A DNA stretch of 23,817 nucleotides, from the IMG/VR virus record IMGVR_UViG_3300048592_001397, positions 1 to 23,817 of that record. One strand, given 5' to 3'. The position numbers and the translations under genes are program-made. Shown here in pieces: positions 1 to 10,298 of the stretch. Below the pieces are notes generated by a model. It did not search any database, was not told the DNA's origin, and was given only the letters and a program-made list of their open reading frames with translations. The number at the start of each line of letters is the position of its first letter. The first letter of the stretch is position 1. Source of the stretch: a virus.

Positions 1-726
1 TTATGAGGCAGCCGAATTATTAGAGCCAACTCTTTTTGGATAGGGTTCAATATAGGGTTTTAGCTTTCGCATTATCTCATTTCTCACAGCTTTCCCGCCT
101 ACAGGGAAAATATATCTGTGCTTTGGTTGGATATCCTGCGTAGTAAATTTAGGGTCAAATTTTTTCAAAGTCTCCTTCTTGCGAGACCCAAAGATGCGAT
201 AGACTTCCTTTGGATGATACTTTCTGCCTTTTATGAAGTAGATCTTTGCTCCCCCAGGACAGGTTTTTCCAAAGTAGATTGCATTGCATGCTTGATATAT
301 TGTACCAATTTCTCCAGCTTCTGGGTCAGCATATGCGACAACCGCTTTACAGCGTTTACTATGCTGCAATTTCCTTAGCGATGCCGATATCAATTTGCTA
401 GGAACCCATGTTGGAGCCCAAGGAGCTGAGGCACCTCTGCACAGTTGTAGAATCGTTCCAGAGTATTCGCTTCCAAGATATCTCCTGTACAAATCATTTG
501 ACATGGGCGGCCCAAAACCAACAACTCCAGCTAGGCGATCGGAAGCAAAAAGTCCGTAGAAAAATATTGCCGATCCAATATTTCCTAGCCATTCATACTC
601 AAGAATAAAAGGAGATGCGGTCTTAAAATCTATTTCCTTTATGATTGCTTCAGACGGGTTAATTTCTATTTTCTCACTTTCTGCTGCTTTTGACTTCTTG
701 ATTTTGAACTGCCAGCATTCTTTCAT
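1..726 (-). CDS. Mom-like DNA-modification protein (GNAT-like fold)
   Basis: This 241-residue protein resembles the phage Mu Mom family. Mom proteins modify adenines in phage DNA to a carbamoylmethyl-type base, which shields the DNA from many restriction enzymes. The assignment is from recalled family motifs: EYEWLG near residue 43, CRGASAPWAP near 97-106 and AYADPEAGEIGTIYQACN at about 131-148, the last being highly characteristic of Mom-like proteins. The basic C-terminus would suit DNA contact. The frame is open upstream to 789, but I chose the ATG at 726-724 because it overlaps the upstream stop (TGA at 725-723) as ATGA, which implies translational coupling. The stop is at the first bases of the window. 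In Mu, mom is translationally activated by the zinc-finger protein Com. Here it is instead coupled to an unrelated membrane-associated protein, with a zinc-ribbon gene nearby on the other strand. Substrate and exact chemistry are inferred. Confidence 0.82.
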   Translation of the reverse strand: MKECWQFKIKKSKAAESEKIEINPSEAIIKEIDFKTASPFILEYEWLGNIGSAIFFYGLFASDRLAGVVGFGPPMSNDLYRRYLGSEYSGTILQLCRGASAPWAPTWVPSKLISASLRKLQHSKRCKAVVAYADPEAGEIGTIYQACNAIYFGKTCPGGAKIYFIKGRKYHPKEVYRIFGSRKKETLKKFDPKFTTQDIQPKHRYIFPVGGKAVRNEIMRKLKPYIEPYPKRVGSNNSAAS

Positions 727-1814
727 AGTATTTTTTTTCCGGTCATACGGAGTAGGAAATATAGAACAATGGCCTGGGAAAAATTGCATGCGACCTTAAA
801 ACTGTCTCCGAGAGGCTTTGTGACGTCGGTTGTTGCTCCCCAAGATGCCAAGGCATAAAGTAGTATCAGAAGATAGACCTTTGTATTGCGAAACTTGTCC
901 GTGAATACGAACTGGATTGAAGCATCAGGTCCGAGAATTTGTTTTCCTTGCTGATTGGATTTGTAGATAATATGAAAGGACCCTTGTGTTTCATCTGTTC
1001 TGCTCTTGGGAATCATTCCATAGTTGAATGTGTCTATATGCGAGTCAACTTTTTGCTCCTTGGAACTTAAGATAACAACATCAGTTGTAGGCGACACTTC
1101 GACAGTCGCCCCATGTGTCGGATTCTTGCTTTGCTCGGGATATATATAGTCAATATCGATTTTCATAATCCCATCAATCGGAATCTCAATTGTCGATGCT
1201 GTGTCTTCTGCTTTTTTGTTGATCGTTCTATATCCATCGACTGATGAGCGTAAAAAAATCACTTCTATTCCAGGAGGGTTAAACGATCTTGTCTTGCTAA
1301 TTGCCTCTATTGCCTCGGTAGAGTATTCCCGTCCAGTCTGAATTATCTTTGAATCGGTTATGACGTCGTTCCCGTCTGTAGCATAGATGCCGTCATTTTC
1401 GTTTATTGGATCAGGCTGCCCACTGGCATCTTTCTGAAGGGTGGGCAAAATATTCCTAAGTTCGGTCGGAAGTTTGCAGGAAAACTGCGCTAGGTCACTG
1501 GTATAAACAAAATCTTCAAGCTCCACATAGAAGTATGCATAAGGGTCATTCTTAACACATTTTATGAGTTTGCCGCGTCTGATGGGATGATACTCATACC
1601 TGACTCCTCCGTTTCCCCATCTATCAACGAATATAATTGTTACATCACTGCCTATTTTATTTTGAAAATTTGGGATATCTCCTTCTTGCATGTTTGTTCT
1701 TTTTCCAGTGTATCTGTAGCGATATTTATTGATAGAGCCATTTGGTAAATAGAACGTATTGAGGATATTCTTCAAGTATTTCGGTCTGTATGCAGAATTG
1801 AAAAGATAGATCAA
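723..1814 (-). CDS. Unrecognised protein with C-terminal membrane region, coupled to mom-like gene
   Basis: I do not recognise a named family for this 363-residue protein. The start is TTG at 1814-1812, six bases after a very strong AAGGAGGG ribosome site (complement of 1821-1828). The N-terminal third (residues 1-110) is rich in aromatic residues and predicted strands (YLFNSAYRPKYL, YRYRYTG, IIFVDRWGNGGVRYEYHP) and looks like a small beta-barrel recognition or docking domain. The middle is polar and contains a beta-rich stretch with IEIPIDGIMKIDIDYIYP. The C-terminus carries two hydrophobic segments, at about residues 308-327 (VYLLILLYALASWG) and 346-358 (AIVLYFLLRM), which would anchor it in the membrane. 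It shares an ATGA overlap with the Mom-like gene, so the two are probably made together. A membrane-associated accessory or defence role is only an inference from context. Confidence 0.75.
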   Translation of the reverse strand: MIYLFNSAYRPKYLKNILNTFYLPNGSINKYRYRYTGKRTNMQEGDIPNFQNKIGSDVTIIFVDRWGNGGVRYEYHPIRRGKLIKCVKNDPYAYFYVELEDFVYTSDLAQFSCKLPTELRNILPTLQKDASGQPDPINENDGIYATDGNDVITDSKIIQTGREYSTEAIEAISKTRSFNPPGIEVIFLRSSVDGYRTINKKAEDTASTIEIPIDGIMKIDIDYIYPEQSKNPTHGATVEVSPTTDVVILSSKEQKVDSHIDTFNYGMIPKSRTDETQGSFHIIYKSNQQGKQILGPDASIQFVFTDKFRNTKVYLLILLYALASWGATTDVTKPLGDSFKVACNFSQAIVLYFLLRMTGKKIL

Positions 1815-2340: not shown

Positions 2341-2997
2341 TTGATCCACTCAACATCACAGAAAAGCAAAATCGACTTGGCTAAGCAATTGAATACAGTA
2401 GAGTTTGCGGATCTTTTGCAGATTTCAAAGCAAACCGTAAGCAAAGCGATCAAGAGCGGCAGGCTCTCCAAATCAGTCAACCGCGTGGAAAACAACTACC
2501 TGATCGATGCTGCTCTCGGCGTGCAGGAGTTCTTTCAAAACGCGAGGTTGGACAAGGATCACACCGATCGCCATCACCTTCCCAAGCAATCAACCAGTCA
2601 CCCTTCTCATGAAGATGTGATGCCAACAAGTGAGTCCATCGCCATGGATCGTCACTACACTGCCCTCCTTAGCAAGCTGGCCTATCTGGAGAAAGCAGGC
2701 ACTCTCATTTCCGCCGAGAAATATCGAATCGAAGCATTCCAGGCCGCGCGTGCTACCAGGGATGCGGTCCTCTACACACCACAGGCAATATCCGCCGAAA
2801 TCAAAAGGCAAGTCCGCTCCTTTATCGCGGATAGGTTTGGTGAACAGCAGATCGATATCCATGAATACGAAATTGATGATCTGGTGGCCCGTATTCGCAT
2901 CGTCATGAAAGATGCATTGACCAGGGCTCTTCGTGACCTCGCTGACTCTCGCTTTACCGCTTCTGCCACTTCCTCTGAGGATGCTCCCGCTGACTGA
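2341..2997 (+). CDS. Small terminase subunit, Nu1-like DNA-packaging protein
   Basis: This 218-residue protein is the likely DNA-recognition subunit of the terminase. An N-terminal winged-helix/helix-turn-helix is visible at residues 19-45 (FADLLQISKQTVSKAIKSG), as in Nu1-type proteins, which bind packaging sites. The central part (about residues 100-150) is helical and charged and would suit oligomerisation and contact with the large subunit. The TTG at 2341 is taken as start, although no good ribosome site is visible; TTG at 2377 is an alternative and would still keep the HTH. The 3' end overlaps the large terminase start by 17 bases, the usual nu1-A arrangement. It is somewhat longer than lambda Nu1 (181 residues). 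Confidence 0.7.
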   Translation: MIHSTSQKSKIDLAKQLNTVEFADLLQISKQTVSKAIKSGRLSKSVNRVENNYLIDAALGVQEFFQNARLDKDHTDRHHLPKQSTSHPSHEDVMPTSESIAMDRHYTALLSKLAYLEKAGTLISAEKYRIEAFQAARATRDAVLYTPQAISAEIKRQVRSFIADRFGEQQIDIHEYEIDDLVARIRIVMKDALTRALRDLADSRFTASATSSEDAPAD

Positions 2998-4834
2998 TCG
3001 CGTGTATTCTGACCTTGTTTCCGTGACCGATGACTTCGTGCTTGGCACTCTGCCCAACCCCGATATCTCGATCATCGAACATGCGTCTCGAAATCTCTAT
3101 CTTGTCAGCGGCAAGAATCCCTTCCCAGGTTTGGTCGACTTCGACCGAACACCTTACCTCCGCGAAATTCTGGATGCGCTGATGCCCGACAATGGGGTGG
3201 AGAAGGTCGTCCTGCAGAAAGGTTGGCAAACCGGCGGAACGCTGTCAGCTTTGGCATTTATGCTATGGGTGATGGACGTGAACCCGGCACCTATGCTTAT
3301 CGTCCAACCTTCCGATGAACTTCGCGCCAAGTTCTCAAAGCAGCGTATAGCCCCGATCGTGGCCAACTGCAAATCCCTTCAGGGTAAGATCAAGGATTTA
3401 GAGCGCTATAAGCGCGACAAGACCAAGGAGAAGGATACGATCATCACCAAGCTCTTTCCTGGTGGCTTTCTGAACCTTGGGACCAGCAAAAGCGCAATAT
3501 CGCTGCGATCAGACAGCATTCAGTTCATCGTGTTCGACGAAGTGTCGGCCTATGATCTGGATTGCCAAGGTGAAGGCGATCCTTGCGGAATTGCCATTGG
3601 CCGAACCAGTGCTTACGAAGGTCGCAAAAAGATCTTCTATATCTCCACCCCGACAATCGCTGGCCAGTGCCGCATCGAGCAGGAATATCTCACCACAGAC
3701 CAGCGCAAGTTCTTTGTCCCCTGCTTATCGTGTGGCGAACTGCAGCTTATCGTGTGGAAGCAAATAGACTTTTCGGGAAAGGTTCCCGTTTTCCGCTGCA
3801 TTCGATGTAACGCAAGTCACTATGAGCAGGACAAAACTGAAATGCTTGCTGGAGGGCAATGGCGTCCAACGGCTGCCGCATTATTCCCCAATGTTCGCGG
3901 CTATTTTTTACCGGCTCTCTATGCGCCGGTCGGGATGTACTCCTGGAAAAGCTGCGTGGATCTCTTCAAAAAGGGGTATGAGAACCCCGTCGAGCTTAAG
4001 GTCTTCGTGAACAATTGCCTGGGCGAGACCTGGGAGGATCGCTCGGTCGCTTCTTTGGATGCCGGGGATATCCATGCACTTGCCGAGGATTATGATCCTA
4101 CCACCATTCTTCCCCCTGGTGCTGCTCTAGTTACCGCTGGGATAGATACACATCCAAACCATATCAACATCTGTACAAGGGCATGGGGTCGGGACGGTGA
4201 AAGCTGGGTGCTGGACTACTGGGTTATTTATGGCGACGGCAACGAGATGTCGACCTGGGCTCGCGTCGAGGAAAAGCTCTTGACCACCTATACTCATAGT
4301 CGCGGCGAAAGGCTTCGTATTGCAGCTGCTAGTGTCGACACCGGGGGGCATACAACCGCTGCCGTTTATGAATTCTGTCGCCCCAGATTGGGGGACTGCG
4401 TGATTGCCATAAAAGGCATCGGTAACCCTTCGGCCCCTATCATTGACAAACCCACGCTGCTCAAGGACGAGAATGTCTACCTGTTCAGGGTCGGCAAGCT
4501 TGCCACACACGGGCGCTTATTTTCCGACATTGCACGATCGATCAGCAGCCGCAAGGAGTACCGGGAGAAAGCAAGAAGCGGCATAAAGACCGAATATCGC
4601 GGGGCACAAATCATCCATTTTCATAAAGGTCTGGATCCGTCTTTTTACAAGGAGGTTTCCGCACCCAAGGCACGCTGGGTCAAACGCGAGGGCGGGTTCC
4701 AGCTGGCTTATGAATCGACTGATGGTGTTGCCGACCACGCCCACGACTGCCTTCGCTATGCCGACGCCGCCCGACATTTCCTGGACATCAATATCGACAG
4801 GCTATGTGACACGCTGGAGGGAAAAGTGGCATGA
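2981..4834 (+). CDS. Large terminase subunit, lambda GpA family
   Basis: This 617-residue protein is the packaging ATPase and endonuclease. It cuts concatemeric DNA and pumps it through the portal. The Walker A region is at residues 79-87 (QKGWQTGGT) and lacks the classic GKT, which is common in GpA proteins. Walker B is at 182-187 (FIVFDE). Two CxxC pairs (248-251 and 273-276) form the zinc element often seen between ATPase and nuclease domains. The C-terminal nuclease domain has acidic motifs GIDTH (D389) and SVDTGGHTT (D453), and a late HDCLRYADA segment. The ATG at 2981 is preferred over an upstream in-frame ATG at 2933, which would add a leucine-rich stretch overlapping nu1. The stop overlaps the next gene as ATGA. 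Confidence 0.95.
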   Translation: MLPLTDRVYSDLVSVTDDFVLGTLPNPDISIIEHASRNLYLVSGKNPFPGLVDFDRTPYLREILDALMPDNGVEKVVLQKGWQTGGTLSALAFMLWVMDVNPAPMLIVQPSDELRAKFSKQRIAPIVANCKSLQGKIKDLERYKRDKTKEKDTIITKLFPGGFLNLGTSKSAISLRSDSIQFIVFDEVSAYDLDCQGEGDPCGIAIGRTSAYEGRKKIFYISTPTIAGQCRIEQEYLTTDQRKFFVPCLSCGELQLIVWKQIDFSGKVPVFRCIRCNASHYEQDKTEMLAGGQWRPTAAALFPNVRGYFLPALYAPVGMYSWKSCVDLFKKGYENPVELKVFVNNCLGETWEDRSVASLDAGDIHALAEDYDPTTILPPGAALVTAGIDTHPNHINICTRAWGRDGESWVLDYWVIYGDGNEMSTWARVEEKLLTTYTHSRGERLRIAAASVDTGGHTTAAVYEFCRPRLGDCVIAIKGIGNPSAPIIDKPTLLKDENVYLFRVGKLATHGRLFSDIARSISSRKEYREKARSGIKTEYRGAQIIHFHKGLDPSFYKEVSAPKARWVKREGGFQLAYESTDGVADHAHDCLRYADAARHFLDINIDRLCDTLEGKVA

Positions 4835-5048: not shown

Positions 5049-6515
5049 TTGACCGGATATATTGAAACAGAGGCTGGTGTTCTCATACCGGAAAGCCCGT
5101 ACCGATCGACATCCCGAAGCAACCCCGCTGTTGAGCATTGGAATCCACCTGACGCCAGTGCCGACGAGGCGATTCTGCCCGCTCTTTCTGCCTTGCGGAA
5201 TCAGAGCCATGATCTCGATCGTAACGAAGCCATTGCAAGAGGGGCTGTCGAGAATACGGTCAGTAACGTGGTAGCGGATGGATTGAGGCCACAAGCGAAG
5301 CTGGATCATGAGGTTCTAGGAATCTCGGAGCAGAAGGCTCGGGAGTTTGAGAAAGCAGCCGAACGAATCTTTGCGCTTCATGCCAGCTCAGTCTATTCGG
5401 ACTTTACAAGGTCAAACCCCTTCGGGATCAATCAGGCCATAGCGCTGCGTTCGGTACTGCTTGATGGAGACTGCCTCATTCTCAAGCGCTATAAGCCGGG
5501 ACCGGGTGCCATCCTTGGAACCTGTATCCAGATCATTGAAGGCTCCCGTCTGTGCAACCCTGACCTTGGAAGTGCGGACAAGGACATCAGAGAGGGGGTT
5601 GAGTTGAACGAAGATGGCGAGGCTGTGGCCTATCACATCGTGAGCCGGGACAGGATGCAAACCCTCCAGCCGGAGAGAACTATACGCATTCCACGTTTCG
5701 ACACGGAAGGCAATCCGATCGCACTTCATGTCTTCCACAGCCGCCTGCCTGGACAAACACGGGGGGAACCGTTCCTTGCTCCTGTCGTCGAGCGATTCAA
5801 GCAGCTTAGTCGCTATACGGAAAGCGAAGTTATGGCGGCAGTAATCAGCGCTTTTTTTAGTGTATTCGTCACGAGTGAAGGGCACGGGCCATTCGGGGAT
5901 CGAAAGGACATCCACCTTGCATCGCGGCAGGCGAACATGCAAACCAGATCCAAAGAGAAGTTTGGGTCAGGAATGCTGCTCAATATGCTGCCTGGAGAAA
6001 AGGTGGAAACACTTACACCGGGTCGACCAAATGCCAACTATCAGCCGTTCATACAGGCCGTACTGCAGCAGATCGGTATGGGACTATCCATTCCTTTCGA
6101 GGTTCTGACCCAGAATTTTCAGTCATCGTACACAGCAGCTCGTGCTGCGCTGCTGGAGGCATGGAAGTTCGTCATGATCCGTCGTGCTTGGACTATTTCC
6201 AAGATTTGTCAGCCTTTTTATGAATGGGCAATCGGAGAAGCAGTTGCAAAAGAGATGTTGTCAGCACCTGACTTTTCCCATGTGGTTAAGCGCAGAATTT
6301 ATACCTCTGCAGAGTGGGTGGGACCATCTATGCCTTCGATTGATAGATTGAAGGATGCGAAAGCAGATGAAATAAGACTTGTAACCCGCACAGCATCCAG
6401 AAGGTCAATTATTGAAGAGGCGGGTAAGGATTTTGAAAAGATGGAACGGGAAATTCAAAGCGAGCAAACTCTGGTCGTAGAACTTCTGCGCCCTACACAC
6501 AAGGATCCAGGCTAA
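5049..6515 (+). CDS. Portal protein, lambda GpB family
   Basis: This 488-residue protein forms the dodecameric DNA gate at the capsid vertex. Lambda-type portal signatures are visible: NEAIARGAVENTVSNVV near residues 58-74, FTRSNPFGINQAIALRSV near 118-135, the DGDCLI segment, HVFHSRLPGQTRGEPFLAP, and an IPFEVLTQNFQSSYTAARAA-type segment near 345-365. The start is TTG at 5049 with AGGA-type ribosome sites just upstream (5034-5043). The C-terminus after about residue 475 (TLVVELLRPTHKDPG) differs from the usual portal ending and abuts a minus-strand accessory gene whose stop overlaps the portal stop. A decayed second copy of the portal 3' end lies about 1 kb downstream, so this gene end is probably a recombination joint. 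Confidence 0.93.
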   Translation: MTGYIETEAGVLIPESPYRSTSRSNPAVEHWNPPDASADEAILPALSALRNQSHDLDRNEAIARGAVENTVSNVVADGLRPQAKLDHEVLGISEQKAREFEKAAERIFALHASSVYSDFTRSNPFGINQAIALRSVLLDGDCLILKRYKPGPGAILGTCIQIIEGSRLCNPDLGSADKDIREGVELNEDGEAVAYHIVSRDRMQTLQPERTIRIPRFDTEGNPIALHVFHSRLPGQTRGEPFLAPVVERFKQLSRYTESEVMAAVISAFFSVFVTSEGHGPFGDRKDIHLASRQANMQTRSKEKFGSGMLLNMLPGEKVETLTPGRPNANYQPFIQAVLQQIGMGLSIPFEVLTQNFQSSYTAARAALLEAWKFVMIRRAWTISKICQPFYEWAIGEAVAKEMLSAPDFSHVVKRRIYTSAEWVGPSMPSIDRLKDAKADEIRLVTRTASRRSIIEEAGKDFEKMEREIQSEQTLVVELLRPTHKDPG

Positions 6516-7252
6516 TTGATTGGAAAAAATGTGGTCGTTGTTTTCATCACAAGCTCAGGCTTTTCTCTTAATACGTTTTGCTCCCAAGTCAAGGAAGCTT
6601 GAATCACAGTCCCACACAATGGACAGAAAGGACGAAAAATTCTATCATCTCGTATGCCGCCTGGAAGAAATGGCGTAAATGACCACAATCTATTGCAATA
6701 ATATTCAGGAAGTATGTTGCACGAAGAGCACCTCGCGGATGTTTGATCGATCTCTTTCAAAGTTTTTCTATAAATAGATCTAGCTACTCTCGTTGAAACC
6801 TTATCAAGAAGAATCTGCTCTTCAGCACCAATTGAATAATTTTGGCTGATGAATTGTTCCACAATTGTTGGATTTACAGTGCTCAAATTCCGAAATAGAC
6901 GGCGTGCTTCTTGATGAACAGAGGAGGCTTTTTCGATCATTTGAAGATGTCTTGCAATGCGGTCGTCGATCTTTAAATACATTTTTACTATAGTTGCAGC
7001 AATCAGGAAGAAACCCAAAACCTGGAACGATATTTCACTTATCGCTCCAATTTGGCTGCTACCAAAAATTGTCTTCGGAACAAAATAGAGAATTGGAACA
7101 ATCAACGATAGACATTCGACAGAATGTGAAACAAATTTTGGCCACCGAAGAAGGTATTTGTGGGTTATCATTCGACGGATATTGAAAGAGAAGATTTTAT
7201 ACAGATTATTCTTGTAACTGGCGCTTTGATCGGCAGACACAAAGTACTCCAC
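6512..7252 (-). CDS. SLATT-like two-TM membrane protein with CxxC zinc-binding tail (mobile-element family)
   Basis: This 246-residue protein resembles the membrane proteins often annotated as mobilome CxxC-CxxC proteins, related in plan to SLATT proteins. It has two hydrophobic segments (about residues 44-62 and 72-92), a charged helical stretch directly after TM2 (KIDDRIARHLQMIEKASSVH), and a terminal cysteine module: C175xxC178, C186, C210xxC213. The text ARSIYRKTLKEI before the first CxxC fits the recalled family pattern, but the spacing between the CxxC pairs (31 residues) is longer than the usual 11. SLATT proteins are thought to act as membrane effectors in defence or conflict systems, often beside nucleotide-signalling enzymes; none is seen here. 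The start is GTG at 7252 with no clear ribosome site. A minus-strand sigma70-type promoter lies at 7303-7331. The gene points against the late operon, as expected for lysogenic cargo. Confidence 0.6.
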   Translation of the reverse strand: MEYFVSADQSASYKNNLYKIFSFNIRRMITHKYLLRWPKFVSHSVECLSLIVPILYFVPKTIFGSSQIGAISEISFQVLGFFLIAATIVKMYLKIDDRIARHLQMIEKASSVHQEARRLFRNLSTVNPTIVEQFISQNYSIGAEEQILLDKVSTRVARSIYRKTLKEIDQTSARCSSCNILPEYYCNRLWSFTPFLPGGIRDDRIFRPFCPLCGTVIQASLTWEQNVLREKPELVMKTTTTFFPIN

Positions 7253-7302
7253 AAAACATCACAGCAGAGAGGTTCTTCAACCCAAGAAGAGCGAAAGCAC
7301 TG

Positions 7303-7331
7303 AATATATATGAATAGATTCTGCCAATCAA
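7303..7331 (-). promoter_or_regulatory. Sigma70-type promoter for the SLATT-like gene
   Basis: On the minus strand TTGATT (7331-7326) and TATATT (7308-7303) are separated by exactly 17 bases. They match the consensus at 4 of 6 and 5 of 6 positions. Transcription would begin near 7296, giving a leader of about 45 bases before the GTG start at 7252. Confidence 0.5.
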
Positions 7332-7397
7332 CATTAGCAATATTACTCATATTTCGCTTAAAATTTACGCGACACATAATCGTCGGACAGTTTCCGT

Positions 7398-7572
7398 AGC
7401 ATGTGTTGCCCGTCCATGCCTTTGATTGACAGGCTTAAGAACTCTAAGGATGACGAAACAAGAATTACATCAAGGCGCCCGATCTTCCAATAATCGGGCC
7501 AGAATTTTTAGAAGATAGACCGGAAAATAGAGAACAATTGAGAGGAGATGAGGGCACTGATTTACGAACCAC
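7398..7572 (+). pseudogene. Decayed 3' end of a second portal gene
   Basis: Reading from the ATG at 7417 gives MPLIDRLKNSKDDETR, then RRPIFQ, a stop, SGQNF, a stop, KIDRKIENN, a stop and EEMRALIYEP. This aligns with the live portal segment MPSIDRLKDAKADEIR, then RRSIIEEAGKDFEKMEREIQ. Across the ungapped 48 bases 6330-6377 versus 7417-7464 I count 34 identities. The relic has three in-frame stops (TAA at 7492, TAG at 7510, TGA at 7540) and a small deletion. Some similarity may extend upstream to about 7398. It ends like a canonical portal C-terminus (EEMRAL), which the live portal has lost. This is a remnant left when accessory genes entered between portal and protease by recombination with a related phage. 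Confidence 0.8.
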
Positions 7573-7613
7573 TATCTAGACACTTCCGCTGGTTCTTAAA
7601 AAGGAGAGTCCCG

Positions 7614-7844
7614 TTAGCTCCTGTATGTAGAGGCGGAAACTTCGACTTGGAGTATTGTCTCCGCAACCGAAGCATCATTCGGATGGCTAGCGTTTGACAA
7701 TGCAAGCTGATGGGGCTTGATAGACTTTTCCAGCTCAGCGTTTAGCTTATGGTAAACTATAAACTCATCTTTGTTGAGCATATCAATTCGCCTAATCCAA
7801 GAGCCATGAGCCATGCGATCAGTTTTGTCATTTTCATTCTTCAT
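7614..7844 (-). CDS. Small hypothetical protein
   Basis: This 76-residue ORF (83 residues if started at the in-frame ATG at 7865) lies alone in the accessory region on the minus strand. The predicted protein is hydrophilic, with a helical middle (MLNKDEFIVYHKLNAELEKS) and no recognised domain. AAGGA immediately precedes the ATG at 7844 and TGAGGA immediately precedes the ATG at 7865; both spacings are tighter than ideal. It may be a real small accessory gene or a chance ORF. I do not recognise its function. Confidence 0.3.
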   Translation of the reverse strand: MKNENDKTDRMAHGSWIRRIDMLNKDEFIVYHKLNAELEKSIKPHQLALSNASHPNDASVAETILQVEVSASTYRS

Positions 7845-7912
7845 TCCTTTTCCGTTGAGAAACATTCCTCAGACGGACTGATCTAGCAATTGAAGATGAA
7901 AAAGTCAGTGTC

Positions 7913-7927
7913 ATGGCCGTTGGCCAT
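7913..7927. repeat. Palindrome upstream of a promoter
   Basis: ATGGCC, GTT and GGCCAT form a perfect six-base inverted repeat. It ends 16 bases before the -35 box of the promoter at 7944-7972, so it could be an operator site. It lies between the minus-strand small ORF and the plus-strand secreted-protein gene. Confidence 0.35.
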
Positions 7928-7943
7928 AGAAAGTACTATGAAG

Positions 7944-7972
7944 TGGACATACCTTGCTTGAATTCCCATAAT
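7944..7972 (+). promoter_or_regulatory. Sigma70-type promoter for the secreted protein
   Basis: TGGACA (7944-7949) and CATAAT (7967-7972) are separated by exactly 17 bases, each matching the consensus at five of six positions. Transcription would begin near 7979, about 37 bases before the ATG at 8016. This is the best promoter match I found in the window and suggests expression independent of the phage late operon. Confidence 0.6.
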
Positions 7973-8015
7973 TTCCTCAACCTTTATTAAAAAATTTTGT
8001 GAACGAGGTGCTTCA

Positions 8016-8549
8016 ATGAAAAGATCTGTGATGATGGGATTGCTTTCGATATCCGGAATCGCCTTTGCAAAACCTGGAAAATTAACACACATGCACGAAT
8101 CGTATCCAGACCCAGGCATAAAGTGTGTCCAGCTCCAAGGGCTTTGGGAGGGGGAATGCACAGAGAGTGGAGCGATGGTTGCAGCGCGGTTACAAGTTTT
8201 TCAAGATGGATGCACTGATCTTGCCTTTTACGACTTTGACTATCCAATTCCAGTTCACTATAAGTTTGGCAGGATTAACACAACAGGAAATTCGCCAGCC
8301 TTTAAGTCATTCCATAGCAGCACGTTCTATTCGGAATGGTCTGAAGATCAGAAGGCTTTTTCCTCCAAGGGCTATGGAAGTTCCCAGTACACATATTCAA
8401 GCAAGCCGGTCACTAATAGCGTAGAGTTTAACTTTACGGCAGCCCTCAATGGAGAGGAGCTGCTAACCGAATACGAAAGCCGACTACCAAATTCAACAGG
8501 TCCGGGATCTTCATACAGGTTGAATTGCACATATAGAAAATCCAGGTAA
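8016..8549 (+). CDS. Secreted hypothetical protein (lysogenic-conversion candidate)
   Basis: This 177-residue protein has a clear signal peptide, MKRSVMMGLLSISGIAFA, with likely cleavage after AFA at residue 18, so it should be exported to the periplasm or beyond. The mature part is rich in aromatic and polar residues and appears all-beta, with four cysteines that could form disulfides (C37, C48, C66 and one near the C-terminus in LNCTY). The pattern LQGLWEGECTESG resembles the first strand of small lipocalin-like or beta-barrel proteins, but I cannot assign a family. A GAGGTG ribosome site lies about seven bases before the ATG and a good promoter lies upstream. Exported proteins without a role in virion assembly, inserted in the late region with their own promoter, are typical morons. 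Function unknown. Confidence 0.7.
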   Translation: MKRSVMMGLLSISGIAFAKPGKLTHMHESYPDPGIKCVQLQGLWEGECTESGAMVAARLQVFQDGCTDLAFYDFDYPIPVHYKFGRINTTGNSPAFKSFHSSTFYSEWSEDQKAFSSKGYGSSQYTYSSKPVTNSVEFNFTAALNGEELLTEYESRLPNSTGPGSSYRLNCTYRKSR

Positions 8550-8650
8550 AGCGCAAGTCGCTGGAGTCTTCTGGCAATCATCACCAGGAACTACACGTTT
8601 TCTGGGGATTTTTTACAGTCTCTATCTGCGCAAAGATACCACGACTGCAA

Positions 8651-9010
8651 TCAAAGCCAGAAGAAAAGCGTAAGTCCAGCCATGATGTTTGGCCCGATAT
8701 TGTCGGTATTATCGAGAGTCTTGAGGCACTTTGCAGCAAGAAAAATCAATGCCAGCAGGCCAAAAATAATGATTCTCGATTGGAGTCCTCGTCGAAGCCC
8801 CGAATCGCGTTCGATGAATATCCCTCTAAAGACTGATATTCCGTGGATTAGAAACATCGACGCGAGCGGAATAAGAGAAAATATGAAGGCCCTGGGGCGG
8901 ACGAACGTGGGAATTAACTGAAGGGAATACGGGGTTGGTGATAGTGCAAAAAGAGCTGCAATAATCAGCATAATACTGAGATGACGCCGGAATGCGATCA
9001 GTCGAACCAT
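8651..9010 (-). CDS. Small integral membrane protein
   Basis: This 119-residue protein has about four hydrophobic segments: SIMLIIAALFAL, FIFSLIPLASMFLIHGI, RIIIFGLLALIFLAA and a C-terminal NIMAGLTLFFWL. The ATG at 9010 is chosen because GAGGT lies about seven bases upstream on the minus strand; the frame is open further, to 9118. A promoter-like pair lies at 9037-9066. No family is recognised. A holin is conceivable by size and topology, but the gene opposes the late operon and has its own promoter, so it more likely belongs to the accessory set between portal and protease. Confidence 0.55.
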   Translation of the reverse strand: MVRLIAFRRHLSIMLIIAALFALSPTPYSLQLIPTFVRPRAFIFSLIPLASMFLIHGISVFRGIFIERDSGLRRGLQSRIIIFGLLALIFLAAKCLKTLDNTDNIGPNIMAGLTLFFWL

Positions 9011-9036
9011 TTTGATACCTCGTTCTTCTTTTGGAA

Positions 9037-9066
9037 AGCATAGAAACACAAAGCGTCTGGGGTCAA
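9037..9066 (-). promoter_or_regulatory. Sigma70-type promoter for the small membrane protein
   Basis: On the minus strand TTGACC (9066-9061) and TATGCT (9042-9037) are separated by 18 bases, matching the consensus at 5 of 6 and 4 of 6 positions. The ATG follows at 9010. Confidence 0.45.
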
Positions 9067-9176
9067 TGAGATTCTTGAGGTTAGTGAACCCTGGATTCGT
9101 CCGCTTTCCGGTGGTCATTGCCGACTCCAGTGACTCCTGTACAGAGATCGACTATCTTCCGTTTCGTGGAGGGAAA

Positions 9177-10298
9177 ATGAGTCTGGCTTCGATAATTGAG
9201 TTGATACCGTGGGCGATGAATGAAGCCGGGCTTCGAGTTCTCATCACAGTTGCAGATCGCGGAATGGAACCACACGCTCTTGAAAAGAGCCTGGGCAAGC
9301 GTCCTGGCTATGCACACTCATCTACCGTTAGGGATGGAGTCGGAATTGTCCCAATCCAGGGGGCGATGTTCAAAAGAGCAAACCTCATCACCGAGGTGTG
9401 TGCCGTCACAAGCTATGAGATGGCATTCCGCGATCTTGCAACTCTCCTTGATGATGCCTCGGTCAAATCCATTGTCCTCAATATCGATTCTCCTGGAGGT
9501 GAGGCCAATGGCTGCTGTGATCTCGCCGAGTTTATCTTTTCCTCGCGTTCAAAAAAGCCGATCATCGCCTATATCAGTGGCCAGGGCTGTTCCGCTGCCT
9601 ACTGGATCGCGTCGGCATGCACTCGTATTGTCGCTTCTGAAACAGCCATGATTGGCAGCATCGGTGTCCAGTCGGTGATTCGATCGAAAAGCGATCCGTC
9701 TGAACTTCGCTTTGTAAGTTCCCAATCCCCCCTAAAAAATGCAGACCCTGCGACAGAAACTGGAGCCCGCGAAGTCCAGCGTATTGTGGATAGCCTCGGC
9801 GAGATATTCGTCGGCAAGGTGGCCAGTAATCGTGGCACCACAATCGAAACCGTACTGAAATCCTTTGGTCAAGGCGCAACCTTTCTCAGCGAAGATGCGC
9901 GAATGCGAGGGATGATTGATCATATAGCAACATTTGAAGGTCTAATGAGTGAATTGACAGAAGATGCGGGCTCGGAGCCCGCAAGTAAAATTGATGCGTC
10001 CGCACTGGAGCAGGTCAGAGTCCAGGAACGAAAGCGCATTGTAACCATTCAAAGCCTATGCCGTGGGCGGGTATCCCGGCAGTTCTGCGAGTCGTTGATC
10101 GACGAAGGACTTAGCGTGGAGGAGGCTGCTTTCAAGGTCCTGACGGAAGCCGATCGGGACGCCAAAGCAGGCGTTACGCGGTTGGTCGAAGCCGACCGAC
10201 TGCTGGATAAGGTGACATCCAAAAAGCAGGATGTACCGGCTGACGATGAGGCTGATGCCGACGTCGAACTGGCTATCAAACTTGGCCTCGTGGCGTGA
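9177..10298 (+). CDS. Head maturation protease, S49 (lambda gpC-like), with scaffold-like C-terminus
   Basis: This 373-residue protein belongs to the SppA/ClpP-fold peptidase S49 family used by lambda-type phages to process the prohead. The protease domain spans about residues 50-255, with VPIQGAMFKR, the IDSPGG turn at 103-108, the likely nucleophile S139 in GCSAAYWIAS, GSIGV at 160-164 and a candidate catalytic lysine near 187 (SPLKNADP). The remaining 110 residues are charged, helical and low in hydrophobicity (ALEQVRVQERKRIV, EEAAFKVLTEADRD). They probably act as an internal scaffold, as Nu3 does in the C gene of lambda. The ATG at 9177 follows a GGAGGG site; the frame is open further upstream, but that part overlaps the divergent gene. 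It should directly follow the portal gene but is separated from it by about 2.6 kb of cargo. Confidence 0.9.
   Translation: MSLASIIELIPWAMNEAGLRVLITVADRGMEPHALEKSLGKRPGYAHSSTVRDGVGIVPIQGAMFKRANLITEVCAVTSYEMAFRDLATLLDDASVKSIVLNIDSPGGEANGCCDLAEFIFSSRSKKPIIAYISGQGCSAAYWIASACTRIVASETAMIGSIGVQSVIRSKSDPSELRFVSSQSPLKNADPATETGAREVQRIVDSLGEIFVGKVASNRGTTIETVLKSFGQGATFLSEDARMRGMIDHIATFEGLMSELTEDAGSEPASKIDASALEQVRVQERKRIVTIQSLCRGRVSRQFCESLIDEGLSVEEAAFKVLTEADRDAKAGVTRLVEADRLLDKVTSKKQDVPADDEADADVELAIKLGLVA

Follow-up and report, generated by a model that had tools for sequence, protein, structure and literature searches.

The 23.8-kb IMG/VR virus record IMGVR_UViG_3300048592_001397, analysed here over positions 1–23,817 (hereafter referred to as the window), carries a gene resembling the SLATT family between a portal gene and a degraded stretch of DNA that the original prediction took for a second, divergent portal end. 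How does a phage come to have two portal ends on either side of one passenger gene, and is the junction between portal and protease a place where such genes are regularly exchanged? The joins by which phages gain passenger genes can seldom be seen. In the window, the remnant of a gene end reveals how one passenger was probably stacked on an earlier one. Moreover, close relatives in which the site is empty or differently filled make the exchange open to direct study. In what follows, loci of relatives compared with the window are designated by L-numbers.

Organization of the head-gene region

The window contains a terminase gene (2933–4834), followed by the live portal gene, which belongs to the lambda family (5049–6515, plus strand; PF05136, E = 6.5e-88). 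Next comes the SLATT-like cargo gene (6512–7252, minus strand), encoding a 246-aa protein that has two hydrophobic segments and, in its C-terminal part, CxxC...CxxC. The region upstream of this gene (7253–7397) meets the old portal tail at a putative recombination joint. Beyond the portal relic (7398–7572, plus strand) and the relic of an outer-membrane β-barrel gene (7796–7926, minus strand), both described below, lie two further cargo genes. One (8016–8549, plus strand) encodes a 177-aa secreted protein with an N-terminal signal-like segment and without a significant Pfam, PHROG or NCBIfam match, and the other (8651–9118, minus strand) encodes a membrane protein that is common to L004 (92%, tblastn); blastn similarity resumes at 8609. 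The right border of the cargo site is the gene for the S49 head maturation protease (9012–10298, plus strand; PF01343, E = 1.1e-19; phrog_53, E = 4.3e-70), whose real start is probably near 9171; identity to L014 begins at 9164. The window also encodes a decoration protein, a PF03864 capsid and a contractile-tail module. An open reading frame at 7614–7865 (minus strand) was discounted as a gene, being a frame-shifted reading through the barrel-gene relic.

Two observations lie aside from this arrangement. A Mom-family DNA modification protein is encoded at the window edge (1–789, minus strand; PF25680, E = 6.8e-29). Distant homologues (38%) of the membrane protein are found upstream of terminase in L018 (2382–2711), L019 (2184–2513) and L020 (5105–5434), and this cargo therefore seems to be mobile between phage sites.

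A second, decayed portal end

Judged from its sequence, the stretch at 7398–7572 derives from the 3′ end of a lambda-type portal gene and has decayed; it is a second tail, divergent from the live one. The 34 identities in 48 ungapped positions that first pointed to this relationship are exact and constitute the best 48-base match between the two regions (6330 against 7416). When gaps are allowed, 80 of 131 columns are identical (blastn of the interval against the portal, E = 6e-7), and none of 3,000 dinucleotide shuffles reached the score of the relic, whether against the window's own tail or that of L003, which places the similarity above background. Furthermore, a profile of portal C-terminal ends, built from the tails of 16 other portals with the window's own gene excluded, matched the relic at both the protein level (hmmsearch with stops masked, E = 1.2e-7) and the DNA level (nhmmer, E = 9.6e-7), and this was its only match in 12 portal–protease intervals. 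The profile detected no portal relic in the 11 other intervals, and stacking has thus been seen once among the occupied junctions.

The homology extends over about 7389–7560, its convincing part being 7410–7535. The three predicted in-frame stops are all present and the alignment reveals a gap of 12 bases in the relic, so that the stops and the indel mark it as non-coding. By contrast, the proposal that it ends like a canonical portal C-terminus, in EEMRALIYEP, has to be abandoned: these residues lie past the last stop and past the homology, none of 17 portals ends in this manner, and the last 5–25 portal residues differ between all lineages. As proposed, the SLATT-like gene is flanked by a portal end on either side. 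The live and relic tails correspond to the same portion of the portal, so the relic represents a duplicate portal end and not one half of a gene split by an insertion. Simple gene-splitting insertion is thereby excluded, and a further portal end must have been provided.

About 220 bases beyond the portal relic lies a second fossil, namely the outer-membrane barrel gene reduced to its upstream region and signal-peptide start, the gene body being lost. It reads MKMTKLIAWLMALG and then runs to a stop. This stretch (7796–7926) shares 83% DNA identity with positions 9230–9360 of L003/L014, where an intact PF13505 gene starts. The order of a portal tail followed by a minus-strand barrel gene is common to L003, with an HNH gene in between, and L039, with efflux cargo in between. 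Because the order in the window matches that in L003 and L039, the whole stretch from 7398 to 7926 most plausibly represents the eroded remnant of an earlier junction, in front of which the SLATT-like gene was placed. The leaders of the barrel-gene relic (7813–7851) and of the membrane-protein gene (8992–9030) are 72% identical over 39 bases around their start codons; possibly this is a shared leader behind which genes were swapped, or else chance.

Cargo at the portal–protease junction

Relatives were gathered by portal and terminase searches, and most of the close ones derive from metagenomes 3300048xxx. L024 is a prophage from an isolate genome, and its record ends in an integrase-like gene. 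The patterns used found no terminase relative in 84,980 GTDB species genomes, although this one clade member comes from an isolate genome. We measured the portal–protease interval in 82 loci and counted as the window's clade those whose portal is at least about 49% identical.

Eleven lineages in this clade have an empty junction with a portal–protease gap of 35–250 bp (L022/34, L023, L024, L026, L027, L029/30, L031, L032, L033, L051–53 and L054). Among more distant phages, overlap between the portal and protease genes is common (−4 bp in ZRG1 and phi3LM21, and longer in Lily). The occupied junctions of the clade span 1.45–10 kb (the window, L003, L004, L025/L039, L015/17, L018 and L019/20, plus L021, whose contig ends in cargo) and hold eight unrelated cargo sets. 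The window has 2.5 kb of cargo, L003 has an HNH gene resembling type IV restriction enzymes together with the outer-membrane barrel gene, L015/L017 have a lipoprotein gene, and L018 and L019 have genes for two different pairs of proteins without assigned function. In L004 (7679–11841), the junction encodes a CZB protein, a cytochrome c′-like protein, MarR, an MCP–rhodanese fusion, a response regulator and a membrane protein, a collection of chemosensory and redox genes. The cargo of L025/L039, about 10 kb, includes genes for CNNM/CorC, an outer-membrane efflux protein and an RND transporter, and is followed by a barrel gene, the protease and the capsid. In L039 (1543–11800; G001 record), these 10 kb within the head-gene cluster encode a DUF1232 protein, CNNM/CorC, the efflux protein and a 1052-aa RND pump resembling those of the heavy-metal efflux type. 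After the portal of L021 (3596–4698, minus strand) are encoded a 180-aa protein and the C-terminal part of a putative restriction-modification protein, a reading given by a weak PADLOC match (E = 0.013); the contig ends at this point. Independent samples yielded similar occupied junctions more than once (L003/L008/L002, L015/L016/L017 and L019/L020). The long portal–protease gap of L011 was not accepted as moron cargo, as it holds forward genes resembling virion structural genes; L012, like L011, also has a long gap.

Relatives thus provide both an empty site and different cargo at the same site, the two observations that had been named as support for a moron hot spot. The portal–protease junction of this temperate-type myophage clade is such a hot spot.

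The portal 3′ end is exchanged with the cargo

Pairwise comparisons place the left breakpoints in the last portal codons and the right breakpoints at or upstream of the protease gene. L018 and L019 are 92% identical in the left flank and 90% in the right flank with their cargo swapped; the two diverge within the last ~10 portal codons and become similar again some 75 bp ahead of the protease gene. Measured from the stop of the window's portal, similarity between the window and L014 is lost 57 bp upstream and regained at 9164, beside the protease start; between the window and L013, it is lost 95 bp upstream and regained at 8609. Portal identity among these three is about 86–99% through most of the gene, about 82% at 6201–6350 and 63–70% thereafter. 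Starting at about 6050, and sharply from about 6350, the live portal 3′ end departs from relatives that are otherwise 93–99% identical, and the GC content, 0.54 before, drops to 0.45 over the final 300 bp. The breakpoints, the loss of identity in the tail and the fall in GC content together identify the portal 3′ end as part of the exchanged unit. Since the portals of the window, L013 and L014 are highly identical through most of their length but 63–70% identical in the tail, portal tails travel with the cargo. Portal ends differ between phages that elsewhere are about 95% identical.

A more tentative idea, which we regard as possible but doubtful, is that the variable portal C-terminus serves as an exchange handle and that each cargo set brings its own portal end. 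If true, recombination in a head gene would drive the turnover of restriction-type endonucleases, chemosensory proteins and a 10-kb efflux set, and stacked portal tails would record the order of events.

The SLATT-like gene and its joint

The best match of the SLATT-like protein is TIGR04402, a mobilome CxxCx(11)CxxC family (E = 3.5e-13), at 50.2 bits against a cut-off of 70; SLATT_4 gives E = 0.017 and 15 bits against a cut-off of 55. The designation 'SLATT-like' is thus fair with regard to the similar architecture but weak as a family assignment, because the protein stays below the curated cut-offs of both SLATT and TIGR04402. The protein has no significant Pfam match, and no match in PADLOC or in phage or plasmid collections. 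The gene runs antiparallel to the late operon and is probably expressed in the lysogen; any role in defence is a guess. A weak promoter-like match in 7253–7397 points towards it, in a region where a consensus scan yields about as many sites as in shuffles. No donor combining this portal end with the SLATT-like gene was found in viral contigs, plasmids or phages. Site-specific insertion of a transposon or integrase element at a gene 3′ end was considered and rejected, as no recombinase-like open reading frame is listed in 6512–7398 and there is no exact flanking repeat.

Origin of the duplicate portal end

We consider it rather probable that the fossil at 7398–7572 records one exchange at the hot spot, in which a unit of portal end and SLATT-like gene entered and was stacked on the resident tail. 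The incoming molecule would have carried the portal 3′ end of a related phage, followed by the SLATT-like gene. On one side, it would have recombined homologously within the portal gene body, and on the other it would have been joined non-homologously in front of the resident portal 3′ end, a one-sided, homology-anchored illegitimate recombination. The product would comprise a working hybrid portal, the SLATT-like gene, a startless second portal tail and then the content of the old junction. The resident tail, now useless, would have decayed by stops and a deletion, and the barrel gene of the old junction would later have been lost down to its leader. The original prediction had the cassette arrive with one phage's portal end and replace the contiguous portal–protease junction of another. 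In our reading, the live end is likelier to have come with the cassette and the relic to have been the resident's. Simple replacement does not fit, because the new layer appears stacked in front of an old tail and barrel leader that survive.

The affinities of the relic bear on this reading. Its best alignment is with the L003 portal tail. Where L003 and L004 share a base that the window's live tail lacks, the relic carries this shared base at 13 sites, the base of the window at 6 and neither of the two at 4. This 13:6 ratio favours a two-phage origin, and the relic and live tails are likely to derive from two different phages. A tree of 163 sites, which lacks the power to prove this, does not place the relic and leaves a grouping with the window's own tail unrejected (AU p = 0.10–0.46). 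Such a grouping would be expected if the portal 3′ end had been copied within one phage, through unequal or template-switch recombination; the SLATT-like gene would have been caught between the two copies, of which the downstream one then decayed. This would likewise put the downstream copy beside the resident junction. However, the 13:6 preference for L003/L004 runs counter to a local copy, and the live tail is foreign to its backbone (63–70% identity against about 95% elsewhere), which leads us to regard local duplication as unlikely.

Stacking could also have occurred far earlier in another phage; a block reaching from the portal tail to about 8600 and including both tails would then have been imported at once as a ready-made cassette. 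An L004-like backbone flanks 6420–8609 on both sides and the GC content is low across the whole block, as this scenario would have it, but no donor is seen and the same stacking is still required, elsewhere and with a second transfer in addition; we judge it improbable. Finally, the joint is known from a single metagenomic contig and has no second copy in IMG/VR, which might suggest an assembly chimera of two phage populations. Misassembly would not create a degraded relic to which no sampled portal is nearly identical, and the recurrence of similar occupied junctions in independent samples also speaks against an artefact, making this explanation highly improbable. We therefore retain entry of a portal end with the SLATT-like gene and its stacking on the resident tail.

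Comparison with known systems

The mosaic accretion of cargo, or morons, between phage late genes is a concept reportedly introduced by Hendrix, Juhala and colleagues, and moron exchange in mosaic phages is of a known kind. The literature searched held nothing relevant on a described portal–protease moron site; the site, the range of its cargo and the visible stacking are new as far as searched. Like morons, the cargo described here consists of extra genes between conserved late genes, often on the opposite strand, lower in GC content and variable or absent in relatives. Unlike morons, at least eight cargo sets occupy one junction in one clade, with up to 10 kb of DNA, and the 3′ end of the upstream structural gene changes with the cargo, a copy of it persisting as a fossil.

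A process familiar from DNA uptake by bacteria, homology-facilitated illegitimate recombination, likewise combines homology on one side with a non-homologous join on the other and would produce exactly one duplicated gene end, although for the present locus we infer the process from anatomy only. Mobile elements integrate at gene 3′ ends, where the end is replaced and the 3′ fragment displaced. The window shares with them an element that has a live gene end on one side and, on the other, a homologous 3′ fragment that has been displaced, whereas its insert has no recombinase, there is no exact target repeat, and the displaced fragment and the live end are divergent in sequence.
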